IMG/VR virus record: IMGVR_UViG_3300009149_000011
Coordinates: 1 to 64,000 of that record
DNA from: a virus
Reading direction: 5' to 3' (one strand)
Length of the DNA: 64,000 nucleotides
Positions within the stretch are counted from its first letter, which is position 1. Each line of letters opens with the position of its first letter. This document shows positions 49,333-63,813 of this stretch, one piece after another. The notes under the pieces were generated by a model that did no database searches, was not told the DNA's origin, and saw only the letters and a program-made list of their open reading frames with translations. Both the position numbers and the translations under genes were made by a program.

Positions 49333-50112
49333 TTATGACTCTAGTTGCATCATTAAATCTTCCAATTGCTGCACCATACTGATGAACTTAGGATCTCTCT
49401 TTATTGACTTATCTCTGTCATAAGGTAAATCAACTTTGATGTGATGCTTAATCTTAGCTGGAGCATTTGACATGATGTAAATTTCATCAGCTAGATATAC
49501 AGCCTCAGCTATATCATGAGTAACTAATATTACAACAGGCTCTATATCTTTCCAAATACTAACCAATAGATCTTGCATTTGAAGTCTTGTTTTTATATCT
49601 AGAGCTCCAAATGGTTCATCCATAAGAAGAATCTCTGGACTTGCCAATAAGCTTCTCGCTATAGCAACTCTTTGCAGTTGCCCTCCCGAAAGAGAAGGGT
49701 ACTGAGCATATTTATTTTCATTACCTTCCAATCCTACCAATTTAATCATCTCCTTAGCTCTCTTTATACGCTCTTCTTTACCAACGCCCTTAAGCTCCAA
49801 GCCTAAGGCTACGTTATCTAGAACAGTTCTCCATGGGAATGATGAATATTTTTGAAATACCATACCAACACCGTTTCTAGCATTTGCTGGCTCATCATTT
49901 ACTAGAACTTCTCCAGACGTTGGATCTTGTATCCCAGCTATATATCGAAGCAATGTAGATTTACCGCAACCAGAAGGCCCTAATATGGCTTTAAATATAC
50001 CTTTGCCATTTACTTTGTTGGCTGAGAAGTTTAAATCCTTTATAATAGTTTTTTCTTTTCCATTAATACCTGGATAAACTTGAGTGATGTTTTTTAAATC
50101 TATTTTTGTCAT
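49333..50112 (-). CDS. ABC transporter ATPase, NitT/TauT type, 259 aa
   Basis: Walker A GPSGCGKST (about 43-51), Q-loop FQKYSSFPWRTVLDNVALG, signature LSGGQLQRVAIARS, Walker B ILLMDEPFGALD and switch His in VTHDIAEAV. Family exports none and imports nitrate, sulfonate, cyanate or similar small anions. ATGA overlap with the permease. Confidence 0.92.
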   Translation of the reverse strand: MTKIDLKNITQVYPGINGKEKTIIKDLNFSANKVNGKGIFKAILGPSGCGKSTLLRYIAGIQDPTSGEVLVNDEPANARNGVGMVFQKYSSFPWRTVLDNVALGLELKGVGKEERIKRAKEMIKLVGLEGNENKYAQYPSLSGGQLQRVAIARSLLASPEILLMDEPFGALDIKTRLQMQDLLVSIWKDIEPVVILVTHDIAEAVYLADEIYIMSNAPAKIKHHIKVDLPYDRDKSIKRDPKFISMVQQLEDLMMQLES

Positions 50113-50912
50113 TTGTTTACGTATTTATGTGGAAATATAGCTCTGTCCAATGCTTTAAATAGCAAATCTTGTAACACGCCAATTAATACAATTACAACAA
50201 GAAGGGCAAACACTTTATCAATCCTACTTTGTCTAGCTGCAGTGAACACCATAGCCCCTATACCTTCCGTCTTATTTAACATCTCAGCAACAATTATGTA
50301 TGTCCAAGAAATAGCCACTATAACTCTAATATCGTCAGATAACTTACTAATAACGGCGGGAATAAACACTTTAACAATTATTTGCCACTTACTAGCTCCT
50401 AATGTTTTAGCCGTCTGAACATATACTTTAAGGACCTCATCTATTCTTTGAACCACTATAGGTAATAGATATACAAATATACCAAAAGCTAAGAAATTAA
50501 TCTTCATATTATCTTCTATACCGAACCAAGCTATGAACAATCCAGTAACCGCAGTTAGGGGTATGAATCTAGCCGCATCAACATATTGAGAAAATAGAGA
50601 TCTGAAGAATGGGAACAATCCAATAATAAACCCTATAGGCAGCGCATACAAGATGGCTTTGAAATACCCCCAATAATTAAGTTTAATTGAATATATTGCA
50701 TTCTTAACTAGAAAATCTTTAAAATGCAACTCCTTGAAAGATCCTAAAACGTTTCCAGGATGAGGAAGCAGCGATGGTTCAACCCATTCATTTGCGGCAA
50801 TTGTGTACCATATTAACATGATTACAAAAACACCGCCCAATCCGATTATCATAGAAGTCCTTTTTTCAATAGAACCTCTTAACTCAAACCATCCACTAAA
50901 GAATTTTTTCAT
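50109..50912 (-). CDS. ABC transporter permease, NitT/TauT type, 267 aa
   Basis: Five to six transmembrane helices with the cytoplasmic EAA loop at about 165-185 (VYVQTAKTLGASKWQIIVKV, the EAA...G consensus). Pairs with the ATPase downstream. A terminator at 50939-50971 separates it from the binding protein gene, so expression ratios may differ. Confidence 0.88.
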   Translation of the reverse strand: MKKFFSGWFELRGSIEKRTSMIIGLGGVFVIMLIWYTIAANEWVEPSLLPHPGNVLGSFKELHFKDFLVKNAIYSIKLNYWGYFKAILYALPIGFIIGLFPFFRSLFSQYVDAARFIPLTAVTGLFIAWFGIEDNMKINFLAFGIFVYLLPIVVQRIDEVLKVYVQTAKTLGASKWQIIVKVFIPAVISKLSDDIRVIVAISWTYIIVAEMLNKTEGIGAMVFTAARQSRIDKVFALLVVIVLIGVLQDLLFKALDRAIFPHKYVNK

Positions 50913-50938
50913 GATTGTTTTGTTTTAAATTTAAAGTA

Positions 50939-50971
50939 AAAAAAAGGGAAGCTATTGACTTCCCTTTTTAA
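50939..50971 (-). terminator. intrinsic terminator between binding protein and permease
   Basis: AAAGGGAAG and CTTCCCTTT form a 9-bp stem, loop of about 7 nt, followed by TTTTTT on the minus strand. Placed 5 nt after the 50976 stop. Confidence 0.85.
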
Positions 50972-50975
50972 TTTT

Positions 50976-52508
50976 TTAGTTTTCAATTAACTCAAAGTCT
51001 GTTCTCCTATTTTTAGACCTACCTTTTGAGGTAGAGTTGTCAGCTACAGGTTTATCTGGACCGTTACCTACAACTACGAACCTATTTGGATCAAATCCAT
51101 GTTCTGAAGCCAAGTAGTCAGCAACCGCTTGAGCTCTTTGTTTAGATATTCTCTTATTAGTAGATAAGCTTCCTGTGTTATCAGTGTTACCTTGAATTCT
51201 AATACGAGCGTTACCGAAACTCTTAGCTATTTCCAAAAACTGTAAGTCAATTATATATTTAGAATTCTCATCTAACTTATAAGCTCCAGTGGGGAATGTA
51301 ATAGTTACTTGTTTAGTTGAAATTGCTTCTTTAGTTATTAGAGCCGCAGTAGGCGCTTCGAAAGTTACCCCTCCTTCAGCATCATTTTCAGAACCACTTA
51401 ATGAAACGCTGCTTACAATTTCCTTGGTAGATACAGATCTCCAATTAGGAACTGTGCTAACAAAACCTAACTGGCTATATTTGTTACCCATATTTCTATA
51501 AAGATCTTCACCAGTAACCCCTCTATAAGAACCATCAAGTCCAAAGAAAGCTTGATTATCTCCCAGCGTTGCTAATCTTACATTATTAATAGCTGAGTAG
51601 CAGAAATTATAATCCATACCTAATCCTTTTTGAAGGATTTGAGCTGCTTCTTTCTTAGCTGATTCAGTTGTATTAATTGCGGCAGAACCTTTCATCCAAC
51701 CTTCAAACAATTGCGTCAACTCTTTATTATTATTATCTATGAAATCTTGCTTAGCAAAGAATACATCAGCGATAATATTAGAAGCCGTTTTAGTAGACTG
51801 TAATACCTTAGAGCCTTTTACGTTATCAACACAGTCAGCATCGTCTGGAGACCACACTACAGCCCCATCTACACTGCCAGATTTAAACATAGACGCGGCA
51901 TCAATTGCACTAGCTACCTCTATAATATTTACATCAGATGTTTTTAGATTACTAGTTTCAAGTAAATTGATTAAGAAAGAGTGAGACGGAGTCATATAAG
52001 CTACCGCAATTTTCTTTCCTTTTAAATCAGATACATTACCAATACCTCTTCGAACTACTATAGCATCTCCTCCACGGGACCAATCTGCCTGGAATACAAT
52101 CTTAGGATCAAACTCCTTAAGAGCATCAGCTTCAGTAGGGAAGGCATCAACTGTTGCCCATAATAAATCCACATCTCCTGATTTCCAAGCTTCTCTTGAG
52201 GCAACGAAGTCATCTAAAACTTTGAACTCTACTAGGAATCCGTAGTCTTTATAAAATTTAGAGGCAGTGTTAGCTTCAAAGCCTTTATTCCAAAACTGGC
52301 CTCCAGCATATCCACCCCAAGTCACTACTCCGACTTTAATGGTTTTTGTATCTTCAGATACGTCTGCAGCTTCTGCAGTTTGTTTATTTTCTTCAGGTGT
52401 TGGAATCACGCTATCTAGCGCTCCAGTGAAGTGAAGAGCCGCATAGATACCCCCGAACACGAGAGTAAATATAAAGATCTTAGCAAATGGTGTCATTGAT
52501 TTCCACAT
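50976..52508 (-). CDS. ABC substrate-binding protein fused to OmpA peptidoglycan-binding domain, 510 aa
   Basis: One transmembrane anchor (residues 9-29, IFIFTLVFGGIYAALHF), then a periplasmic binding domain of the NMT1/TauA/SsuA type (KTIKVGVVTWGGYAGGQFWN, WKSGDVDLLWATVDAFPTEA, DLKGKKIAVAYMTPSHSFLI, VDGAVVWSPDDADCVD). The end is an OmpA domain: RIRIQGNTDNTGS, NKRISKQRAQAVADYL, KGRSKNRRTDFEL (Asp and Arg that bind meso-DAP). The fusion would fix the receptor to the cell wall. Ligand unknown. Confidence 0.85.
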   Translation of the reverse strand: MWKSMTPFAKIFIFTLVFGGIYAALHFTGALDSVIPTPEENKQTAEAADVSEDTKTIKVGVVTWGGYAGGQFWNKGFEANTASKFYKDYGFLVEFKVLDDFVASREAWKSGDVDLLWATVDAFPTEADALKEFDPKIVFQADWSRGGDAIVVRRGIGNVSDLKGKKIAVAYMTPSHSFLINLLETSNLKTSDVNIIEVASAIDAASMFKSGSVDGAVVWSPDDADCVDNVKGSKVLQSTKTASNIIADVFFAKQDFIDNNNKELTQLFEGWMKGSAAINTTESAKKEAAQILQKGLGMDYNFCYSAINNVRLATLGDNQAFFGLDGSYRGVTGEDLYRNMGNKYSQLGFVSTVPNWRSVSTKEIVSSVSLSGSENDAEGGVTFEAPTAALITKEAISTKQVTITFPTGAYKLDENSKYIIDLQFLEIAKSFGNARIRIQGNTDNTGSLSTNKRISKQRAQAVADYLASEHGFDPNRFVVVGNGPDKPVADNSTSKGRSKNRRTDFELIEN

Positions 52509-52539
52509 AATTAATTAAATTTAAAGTTATACGTTTATT

Positions 52540-53577
52540 TTACAAGAATTTATCGTAACCTGTTTGATTACCCTTTTTTGACCTAGATGCTGGTAAAGCA
52601 ATCTTTTGTTTAGTTCCAACCTTAGCTTGTGAGCTATTAAGACTGTCTATTATAGAGTAGTCAGTACCCTCTTCTAAAAGAATGGTGTTAATTTTATTAT
52701 CCCATTCTTCAAGCATTTTTTCCCCCCTGGCTTCGAATACTCCATTTTGGATATCCATGTTTTCCATAAAAGATTGAGATTGCTCCATAAAACTATCCAT
52801 CTCACCAAGTTTCATTCCGATGTCATCTACCACATATTCCATTGCTTGGTCGAATAACATCTTCTTGTCATTATCACCCGCTATAATGGATTTAGCTGAC
52901 TTCATTACACTGTGACTTTTAAGGACAGCTTCTCGCTCAATTTTCATATGCTTAACTTTATCATCAGTATCTTCGATCATAAAATTAGAAGCTTTGTGCA
53001 TTTTCTTAATAACTTCCTCAAGAATACCCATTGTTCTATATAGGTTAATCAATTTCTGATTAGTAGCTTCAGAACGAGCGGCTTTGTTAGAGTATAAAGT
53101 AACGCTAGCCTTACTCTTACCTTGAGATTGAGCAGATTTAGCTTTCTCAATATTCTCTTTCATTTCTTGAGTATTGTTATCTATCTGTCGTTTAACCTTA
53201 CCTCTTTGGCCAGATAATTGAGTTATTTGTTCAGACATCTTATGACTCTTCTTATGAAGATCTTCTACATATGTTTCCAATATACCAATAGGGTCTATTT
53301 GAATAAAGGCCGCAGTCATTTTACGCATAGCCAGTTTGTAGAAATACCATAAAAGAGTTCTAAATCTTTTATCGGTTGCCAATACAAAGATAACTCCAAG
53401 GCCAGCAATTAAAGCTAAAGCCGTATAGATGTTAGTAAGTAAAGTTATTAAAAAAGGAAGTATATGATACAATCCTATACCCGCGCCTACTATGATAGCA
53501 GCCATGACTATCATACCTGGCGTACCTTCGGGTCTTTGCCAAAATGTTTTTATTGGCTTATTTCCTCCGTTTTCCAT
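52540..53577 (-). CDS. membrane-anchored PspA-like coiled-coil protein, 345 aa
   Basis: Two or three transmembrane helices (about 20-70: MIVMAAIIVGAGIGLYHILP, NIYTALALIAGLGVIFVLAT), then about 220 residues of coiled coil (KKSHKMSEQITQLSGQRGKV, with Gln/Lys heptads) as in PspA/IM30 and ESCRT-III relatives. Basic tail. Likely a membrane-stress or remodelling partner of the neighbouring binding protein, by context. Confidence 0.6.
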   Translation of the reverse strand: MENGGNKPIKTFWQRPEGTPGMIVMAAIIVGAGIGLYHILPFLITLLTNIYTALALIAGLGVIFVLATDKRFRTLLWYFYKLAMRKMTAAFIQIDPIGILETYVEDLHKKSHKMSEQITQLSGQRGKVKRQIDNNTQEMKENIEKAKSAQSQGKSKASVTLYSNKAARSEATNQKLINLYRTMGILEEVIKKMHKASNFMIEDTDDKVKHMKIEREAVLKSHSVMKSAKSIIAGDNDKKMLFDQAMEYVVDDIGMKLGEMDSFMEQSQSFMENMDIQNGVFEARGEKMLEEWDNKINTILLEEGTDYSIIDSLNSSQAKVGTKQKIALPASRSKKGNQTGYDKFL

Positions 53578-54269
53578 TATGCGTTTTCTTTAGTAGTTGA
53601 AAGATACTTTTCAATATTAGCTTTATCTTCCTCAAGCTCTTGTCTAAGAGTATCAGCCGTAGCAATAAAGTTTGTTACGCTTGATGTTATGTTATCGCCT
53701 TCTGTGATGATTTCAGAATCAAGCTCTTTGTTCCTAGCACTTAACTCTTGAATTTCTTCAGTTAACTTCTGAATTTGAGCCGACTTAACCTCAATAGAGG
53801 AAGTATTAGCTTCTTTCTCTTGCTCTCTTGATCCAACTTGACTATTTCTCTTTGAATCAGCCGCAGATTGGAAAGTCACCTTTTCCGAGTCTAACTTGGA
53901 TATATAAGAATTGATTGCTGATAAAAGCGACTCTTGAGTTAACCCTTGCGAAGTTTGAAGTGTAATAAACGCGGTTTGAAACTTAGCCGAATCAGGAATG
54001 TTTACTGCACTCAAATTATCTAGCGCTGCAGAGAATGATTCCAACCCTTTATCTGGAACTGAAGAAACAAGAACACCTTGTAAGTGGTCATAAATCTCTT
54101 TATTGAAAACCCCTTCTTCTGGAGCCCCTTGAACACCAGCCTCAGTAAATGAAAAGTTGAATTCAGCTTTCTCGCCATTTTCAAGCTCCACCTCTTCGGT
54201 CACTTTTTCTTTTGCTTCTACTTCTGAATCAGTTTCAGATTCTTTGAAGAATAATCCTTTTAATCCCAT
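53577..54269 (-). CDS. acidic coiled-coil protein, 230 aa
   Basis: Acidic amino half, then long helices (SAQIQKLTEEIQELSARNKE, DTLRQELEEDKANIEKYLST). Starts MGLKGLFFKESETDSEVEAK. No membrane segment. Overlaps the PspA-like gene by one base, so probably its cytoplasmic partner or a scaffold. Confidence 0.6.
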   Translation of the reverse strand: MGLKGLFFKESETDSEVEAKEKVTEEVELENGEKAEFNFSFTEAGVQGAPEEGVFNKEIYDHLQGVLVSSVPDKGLESFSAALDNLSAVNIPDSAKFQTAFITLQTSQGLTQESLLSAINSYISKLDSEKVTFQSAADSKRNSQVGSREQEKEANTSSIEVKSAQIQKLTEEIQELSARNKELDSEIITEGDNITSSVTNFIATADTLRQELEEDKANIEKYLSTTKENA

Positions 54270-56744: not shown

Positions 56745-57112
56745 TTTAGTTTAAAGACCTGAGAGGAGGCTCCGCCTCCCCTAAAGTCTCGAATTCTTTT
56801 AATTGAATGAATGCTGATTAGGCAGCCATTGCAAGAGATTCTGTGTTTACGTTTATTTCGCCGTTTACTTGTTTTGATCTAACTCTTTTCACTCCGTTCA
56901 TCATGACCAGTCAAGTGCCAGTTAATCCCCATTTAAACTCTTTACCTTAAAGTTTGATTTCTCAGGGACAATAAGGAATCAGATAACTGTTTCCATGTCA
57001 TAGTTACGTTTCCGAAGAAAGAGGCTTTACTAGACCTAGTGGAGAATTGGGGAGTTGAACCCCAGTCCTGTGAAACTTCTCGAAACAAATACGAACGAGT
57101 AGCGATCCTGTA
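56745..57112 (-). ncRNA. ssrA: tmRNA, apparently circularly permuted
   Basis: Tag frame at 56862-56821: GGC resume codon then G-E-I-N-V-N-T-E-S-L-A-M-A-A and TAA; the ending LAMAA is a typical degron and GE.N is Bacteroidota-like. The T arm/acceptor end (TGGGG-TTCAACT-CCCCA-ATTCTCC, 57064-57041) lies upstream of the tag, while the tRNA-like 5' end GGGGATTAACTGG (56930-56918) follows it, the order of permuted genes. GGGGA pairs with TCTCC, and GAAC-G-GAGTG (56899-56890) with TACTCGTTC (57101-57093). Exact ends unknown. Confidence 0.75.
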
Positions 57113-57123
57113 TAAATACAAAA

Positions 57124-57154
57124 CAAAATTACAAAAAGTTCAAACTAATATCAA
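57124..57154 (-). promoter_or_regulatory. Bacteroidota-type promoter of tmRNA
   Basis: Minus strand TTG (57154-57152), exactly 20 nt, TAATTTTG (57131-57124). Predicted start of transcription falls a few nt upstream of the acceptor piece of the tmRNA. Confidence 0.75.
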
Positions 57155-57177
57155 ATTATTTTGATATTATTTTAATA

Positions 57178-62254: not shown

Positions 62255-62265
62255 TTTAAAGTTAG

Positions 62266-62338
62266 AGGGAGTGATGGGGCTCGAACCCACGACCACGGTG
62301 TTAGAGACCGCTGTTCTAACCAGCTGAACTACACTCCC
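62266..62338 (-). tRNA. amber-suppressor-type tRNA (anticodon CTA)
   Basis: Complete cloverleaf: acceptor GGGAGTG/CACTCCC, D arm GTTCAGCTGGTTAGAAC, anticodon stem GCGGT/ACCGT with loop CTCTAAC (U33, anticodon CTA, A37), T arm GTGGG-TTCGAGC-CCCAT, U73. CTA reads UAG. The amino acid it carries cannot be read from sequence with certainty; the acceptor GGGAGTG equals that of tRNA-Tyr at 38897. Confidence 0.88.
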
Positions 62339-63649: not shown

Positions 63650-63655
63650 AACTTG

Positions 63656-63733
63656 AGCTCCTGGAAGGGATCGAACCTCCGAACTTTCTAAACCTTGCGG
63701 GGTTTAGCGCTTATACCAACCAGCCACAGGAGC
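63656..63733 (-). tRNA. tRNA-like gene, anticodon arm with CCGCAA loop
   Basis: Acceptor GCTCCTG/CAGGAGC, T arm GGAGG-TTCGATC-CCTTC. Anticodon arm 20 nt: CTAAACC/GGTTTAG (7 bp) closing CCGCAA. Same hexaloop as its neighbours. Confidence 0.55.
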
Positions 63734-63738
63734 ATTTT

Positions 63739-63813
63739 GAGCGAAGGGGTAGAATCGAACTACCGTACTATAGGTTTGCGGACCTATCGCCTAACCACTC
63801 GGCAACCTTCGCT
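63739..63813 (-). tRNA. tRNA-Cys-like gene, anticodon arm with CCGCAA loop
   Basis: Acceptor AGCGAAG/CTTCGCT, D region GCCGAGTGGTTAGGC as in tRNA-Cys, T arm GGTAG-TTCGATT-CTACC. Anticodon arm ATAGGT/ACCTAT closes CCGCAA: like the Cys loop CTGCAAA but with C33 and one A fewer. Confidence 0.6.

Follow-up and report, generated by a model that had tools for sequence, protein, structure and literature searches.

A circularly permuted tmRNA gene in a large phage genome with Bacteroidota affinities

Identification of a permuted tmRNA gene

We identified a circularly permuted transfer-messenger RNA (tmRNA) gene of the two-piece type in a 64,000-nucleotide stretch of viral DNA (hereafter the window), which is part of a 149,006-bp IMG/VR virus record (IMGVR_UViG_3300009149_000011; G000). 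The gene occupies window positions 57100–56763 on the minus strand. An Rfam covariance search of the 64-kb window matched the model RF04321 (tmRNA_permuted) end to end (model positions 1–213) with 51.2 bits and an E-value of 4e-7, the curated cut-off being 47 bits. RF04321 merges the alpha (RF01849), beta (RF01850) and cyano (RF01851) models. The beta-type model reached 28.6 bits, below its cut-off of 84 bits, so membership in that family is not supported; the same model placed its own 3' hairpin at 56781–56763. One-piece membership found no support either, as RF00023 gave nothing at E ≤ 10 in the window. In addition, a descriptor combining T-arm, acceptor and D-motif matched once in the window and in 0 of 300 Markov-simulated windows. 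The full-length match and the descriptor bear out the order read by a first-pass annotation of the DNA: T-arm and 3' acceptor strand lie 5' of the 5' acceptor strand, D-like region and tag, all on a single strand. The tRNA-like and tag segments are thus all present in permuted order (Table 1).

The acceptor stem, announced by the first-pass annotation as a GGGGA/TCTCC pairing, joins both pieces through six of seven pairs and includes the G3·U70 pair of alanine identity, next to discriminator A73. A second long-range helix (P2) had also been predicted, between 56890–56899 and 57093–57101; it is present, with 10 pairs and one bulged G, although these coordinates were off by about one base. The tag reading frame encodes 14 residues, starts with Gly, is in frame and ends in a stop codon. 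Were translation to resume at GUA (56850) instead, the tag would be VNTESLAMAA.

The first-pass annotation had itself raised the alternative of a one-piece tmRNA, with the upstream T-arm belonging to an unrelated tRNA fragment. T-arms do lie downstream, in neighbouring tRNA-Met genes, but they are parts of two complete tRNA-Met genes and pair with the acceptor at only three of seven positions, against six of seven for the upstream T-arm. Coupled with the silence of RF00023, this makes the one-piece alternative exceedingly improbable.

Table 1. Features of the permuted tmRNA locus (window coordinates)
Feature	Position	Strand	Basis or remark
Promoter candidate of Bacteroidota type, TTTG-N20-TAATTTTG	57124..57155	-	pattern match just 5' of first tmRNA segment
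P2 strand of acceptor piece, ACUCGUUCGU	57091..57100	-	complementary to 56901-56891
T-arm UGGGG-UUCAACU-CCCCA	57048..57064	-	5-bp stem, TTCRANT loop, RF04321 alignment
3' acceptor strand AUUCUCC (57047-57041) and discriminator A73 (57040)	57040..57047	-	sequence
Intervening sequence, presumed removed	56931..57039	-	between A73 and G1
5' acceptor strand GGGGAUU	56924..56930	-	6/7 pairs, G3·U70 kept
D-like region AACUGGCACUUGACUGG with Bacteroidota-type UUGAC	56907..56923	-	sequence
P2 strand of coding piece, AUGAACGGAGU	56891..56901	-	complementary to 57100-57091
Tag frame GGC...UAA = GEINVNTESLAMAA*	56818..56862	-	translation
Small P5-like hairpin GCUG-CCUAAU-CAGC around tag stop (putative)	56813..56826	-	sequence reading, inference
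3'-end GC-rich hairpin GGGGAGGC-GGA-GCCUCCUC, no U-tract	56763..56781	-	RF01850 3' hairpin alignment

The gene was said to be bracketed by its own promoter and terminator. The promoter is plausible: TTTG-N20-TAATTTTG fits the Bacteroidota promoter consensus, and the candidate is suitably positioned, although the window has four such sites versus 1.7 expected. The terminator fared worse, since the GC-rich 3' hairpin lacks a T-run and a terminator scan found none. The sigma-70 promoter/terminator scan of the window was uninformative.

Within the intervening sequence, a 44-bp element (56982–56939, minus strand) recurs with 89% identity (BLAST) in a phage contig, G002. That copy (L149, 5968–5925, minus strand) lies 5' of tRNA genes, a 27-aa open reading frame and a pair of attenuator-like hairpins. 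The ends of the element, CCTTA..TAAGG and CCTTC..GAAGG, covary. A pattern scan of IMG/VR for the element returned G002 as the sole match.

Searches for relatives of the locus returned little. Neither blastn nor megablast of the region and the gene against INPHARED and PLSDB gave a match, no IMG/VR relatives were found for the neighbouring 322-aa protein, and none of the related contigs G001–G009 has a tmRNA over cut-off.

The phage and its probable host

The 149,006-bp record shares a 20-kb stretch, at 100% identity, with another record of 388,594 bp (G001); a second site gives a consistent offset. The two records therefore probably overlap, which would make the phage at least ~484.6 kb long. 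The phage encodes T4-type baseplate proteins; no close cultured relative of it was found. The best relatives of its ribonucleotide reductase are nearly all from Bacteroidota (56–60% identity), and one window protein carries a type IX secretion (T9SS) sorting domain. Both features support assignment to a Bacteroidota phage, in line with the first-pass view of the DNA as a Bacteroidota mobile genome.

Proposed function

We propose that the locus is a phage-borne permuted ssrA gene whose two-piece, alanine-charged product rescues stalled ribosomes and tags their products for Clp proteolysis (probability about 0.87). In this scheme, host RNase P would cut the precursor at G1 and 3' tRNA-end processing would cut it at A73. 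CCA is not encoded after the acceptor strand (ACTA stands there instead) and is likewise missing from nearly all tRNA genes of the window; a host enzyme would add it. The acceptor and P2 helices would hold the two pieces together, G3·U70 would direct charging with alanine, and host SmpB would bind the RNA. Ribosomes stalled during infection would then be rescued, and the truncated protein, extended by GEINVNTESLAMAA, would be routed to Clp proteolysis, carried out either by proteases of the host or by a phage-encoded ClpC-like unfoldase with ClpP.

Several points weigh against this proposal. The RF04321 margin over the cut-off is just 4 bits, the acceptor has one mismatch (U-U at position 6), and the folding energy of P2 alone is ordinary compared with shuffled sequence (p=0.40). 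Moreover, the search for smpB elsewhere in the genome, suggested by the first-pass annotation, found no SmpB in either G000 or G001, so that function would depend on the host. Finally, the two-piece RNA and the tagging are predictions from sequence.

The missing SmpB would also suit a permuted tmRNA-like decoy that competes with or inhibits host trans-translation and does no tagging. In phage DS6A, a tag-less tmRNA form is reported, as cited in PMC11915505, to inhibit endogenous tmRNA. However, a pure decoy would need no tag, whereas here the tag frame, the stop codon and the alanine identity pair are intact, and related phages keep their tags. We therefore consider a decoy unlikely. Slightly less likely still, the gene could be a remnant that no longer functions and is decaying, its source being a permuted tmRNA taken over from a host or another phage. 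The small score margin and the acceptor mismatch could be read this way, as could the fact that ARAGORN does not call the gene, but no damage is seen in T-arm, G3·U70, A73, tag frame or stop, and a promoter candidate lies 5' of the gene.

As for the proteolytic step, G001 encodes ClpP (C1:339415-339945, L459; 211 bits), and the Clp ATPase of G000 (C1:86129-88282, L003:2129-4282; Pfam matches) has both a UVR motif and an IGF loop, and we take it to be a ClpC-type AAA+ unfoldase. Since both are encoded on the phage records, a phage-run tag-and-degrade pathway using host SmpB is possible.

Permuted tmRNAs in Bacteroidota and their phages

A one-piece tmRNA scored over cut-off in 27 of 35 Bacteroidota genomes; thus, the expectation that Bacteroidota hosts have one-piece tmRNAs holds in the sample tested. 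A permuted tmRNA scored over cut-off in one of 395 Bacteroidota genomes, in a scan with strict filters and five candidates scored per genome, in which misses are possible. That single genome carries a normal one-piece tmRNA as well, and its permuted copy (tag GKVIQMNNAPVRLAA) sits in a prophage (G278), among genes for rIIA, rIIB, DNA polymerase A, primase, helicase and integrase.

The first-pass annotation regarded a permuted tmRNA on such a genome as new. It is not unique, as permuted copies are also present in the cultured Chryseobacterium phage MA9V-3 (RF04321, 64.7 bits) and in crAss-like phages. Among the latter, cr53_1 scores over the cut-off (50.3 bits); cr60_1 scores below it (40.3 bits) and is called permuted by ARAGORN. 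An environmental phage (G439/L432) also exceeds the cut-off with 56.4 bits, and its DNA polymerase is nearest to those of Bacteroides and other Bacteroidota phages. A further contig of unassigned host, L085, has a permuted tmRNA with the tag GTYEYRLAA. No permuted tmRNA was found in BS-TP1, phi13:1, phiST, immuto or LR756508. The MA9V-3 and cr60_1 genes are annotated plainly as 'transfer-messenger RNA' in GenBank, and such a plain 'tmRNA' label in public annotation hides the permuted form. Divergent permuted tmRNAs, moreover, escape ARAGORN.

MA9V-3, cr60_1, cr53_1, the G278 prophage and L432 share with the window gene the permuted order, long Gly-start tags (14–17 residues) and a similar resume context, that of the window tag (UAAAC|GG) being common to MA9V-3. 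They differ from it in T-stem, intervening sequence and tag, and blastn detected no similarity to it in the phage collection. In an alignment of seven phage sequences, pairing is kept in 97.6% of cells, and two-sided changes, spread over acceptor, T-stem and P2, affect 11 of 18 pairs; the alignment was cut by hand, with acceptor and T-stem positions fixed and P2 blocks picked for pairing, so the count favours P2.

Permuted tmRNAs, including phage-borne ones, are already known (PMC11915505; PMC9004378). Melnitz and pelagiphages, like the window phage, encode a permuted tmRNA; theirs is a two-piece form resembling alphaproteobacterial genes and accompanied by a glutamine riboswitch (PMC9004378), whereas no such riboswitch was found in the window. 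A search of open-licence papers found none that deals with permuted tmRNAs of Bacteroidota phages, even though public records contain the genes.

Additional tmRNA-related loci came to light on viral contigs. In the crAss-like phage cr56_1, an endonuclease gene (L451, 847–1620) lies just 5' of a tmRNA 5' half with the tag GNTSYVMDYTRLVA. No T-arm was found adjoining this half, and the endonuclease may therefore have been inserted into the tmRNA intervening sequence. One-piece tmRNAs with a UUGACUGG motif occur on contigs L392, L394, L400, L401, L421, L423 and L433, and could possibly be relatives of the permuted Bacteroidota-phage group. RF00023 matches of ~82 nt that span the whole model were seen on L029, L032, L045, L047, L052, L054, L072 and L091; these are possibly tmRNA-like RNAs that lack a tag frame.

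Origin of the permutation

Earlier descriptions of two-piece tmRNA cover three cellular lineages with their phages, as well as mitochondria. The window gene shares with the RF04321 family the order of segments, the T-arm, the G3·U70 acceptor, the intervening sequence and a tag 3' of the 5' half. It differs in having UUGAC instead of UUCGAC, a Gly-start 14-residue tag, and weak or no scores with the three lineage models.

The D-like arm points towards the host group. The base before GAC is U in 25 of 25 Bacteroidota host tmRNAs, all of which carry the UUGAC motif seen in the window gene. The remaining permuted viral tmRNAs of the comparison have C in 42 cases and U in one (cyanophage-type), a count that sets aside a re-fetched prophage copy. 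Most viral sequences had been collected with a T-arm pattern, which would bias a tree of the tRNA-like domain, and the comparison therefore used the D-region signature only; contigs fetched by the pattern ACTGG..TGACTGG, for which this signature is partly affected too, were left out. The base is U (UUGAC) in the window gene, the prophage, L432, cr60_1 and cr53_1, and C in MA9V-3 and L085. The U of L432 is not independent evidence because that contig was fetched by a pattern requiring UGACUGG.

The tags tell a similar story. Phage-group tags begin with Gly, as do those of several Bacteroidota hosts (GEENYALAA, GESNYAMAA), whereas other permuted viral tags begin mostly with Ala. The window tag ends in AMAA, as does the host tag GESNYAMAA, and the crAss tag GNTSYVMDYTRLAA resembles DNTSYALAA of other hosts. 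On the other hand, host genes are not permuted and host tags have ~9 residues. Together, the UUGAC signature and the tag likenesses point to descent of the phage-group genes from Bacteroidota tmRNA. If so, an independent permutation in Bacteroidota phages would follow, which is plausible but unproven; horizontal transfer with convergence may account for the likenesses instead. Only tentatively, and at somewhat less than even odds, do we put forward the full scenario: a phage-side origin from Bacteroidota one-piece tmRNA, beside those of alpha- and betaproteobacteria and cyanobacteria, joined to a phage-owned ClpC-ClpP tag-and-degrade system taking only SmpB from the host. Phages that combine a permuted tmRNA with host-type signatures, in hosts whose tmRNA is one-piece, make it testable whether phages can create the permutation and whether having its own tmRNA benefits a phage.

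Other features of the phage and related contigs

Two tRNAs with a CUA anticodon (suppressor-like) and two with odd anticodon loops are encoded at window 62265–62338 and 63655–63812 and at L002 291–364. Window positions 49333–54269 hold genes that read as ABC transporter-like (ATPase, permease, and a substrate-binding protein with a fused OmpA-like domain), adjoined by TelA-like genes. A related large phage contig (L148/L149, IMGVR_UViG_3300022843_000009) carries a CRISPR-like array with 36-nt repeats (GTTGTGATTCCCTTGCAGAATGAGATGATAAACAGG).
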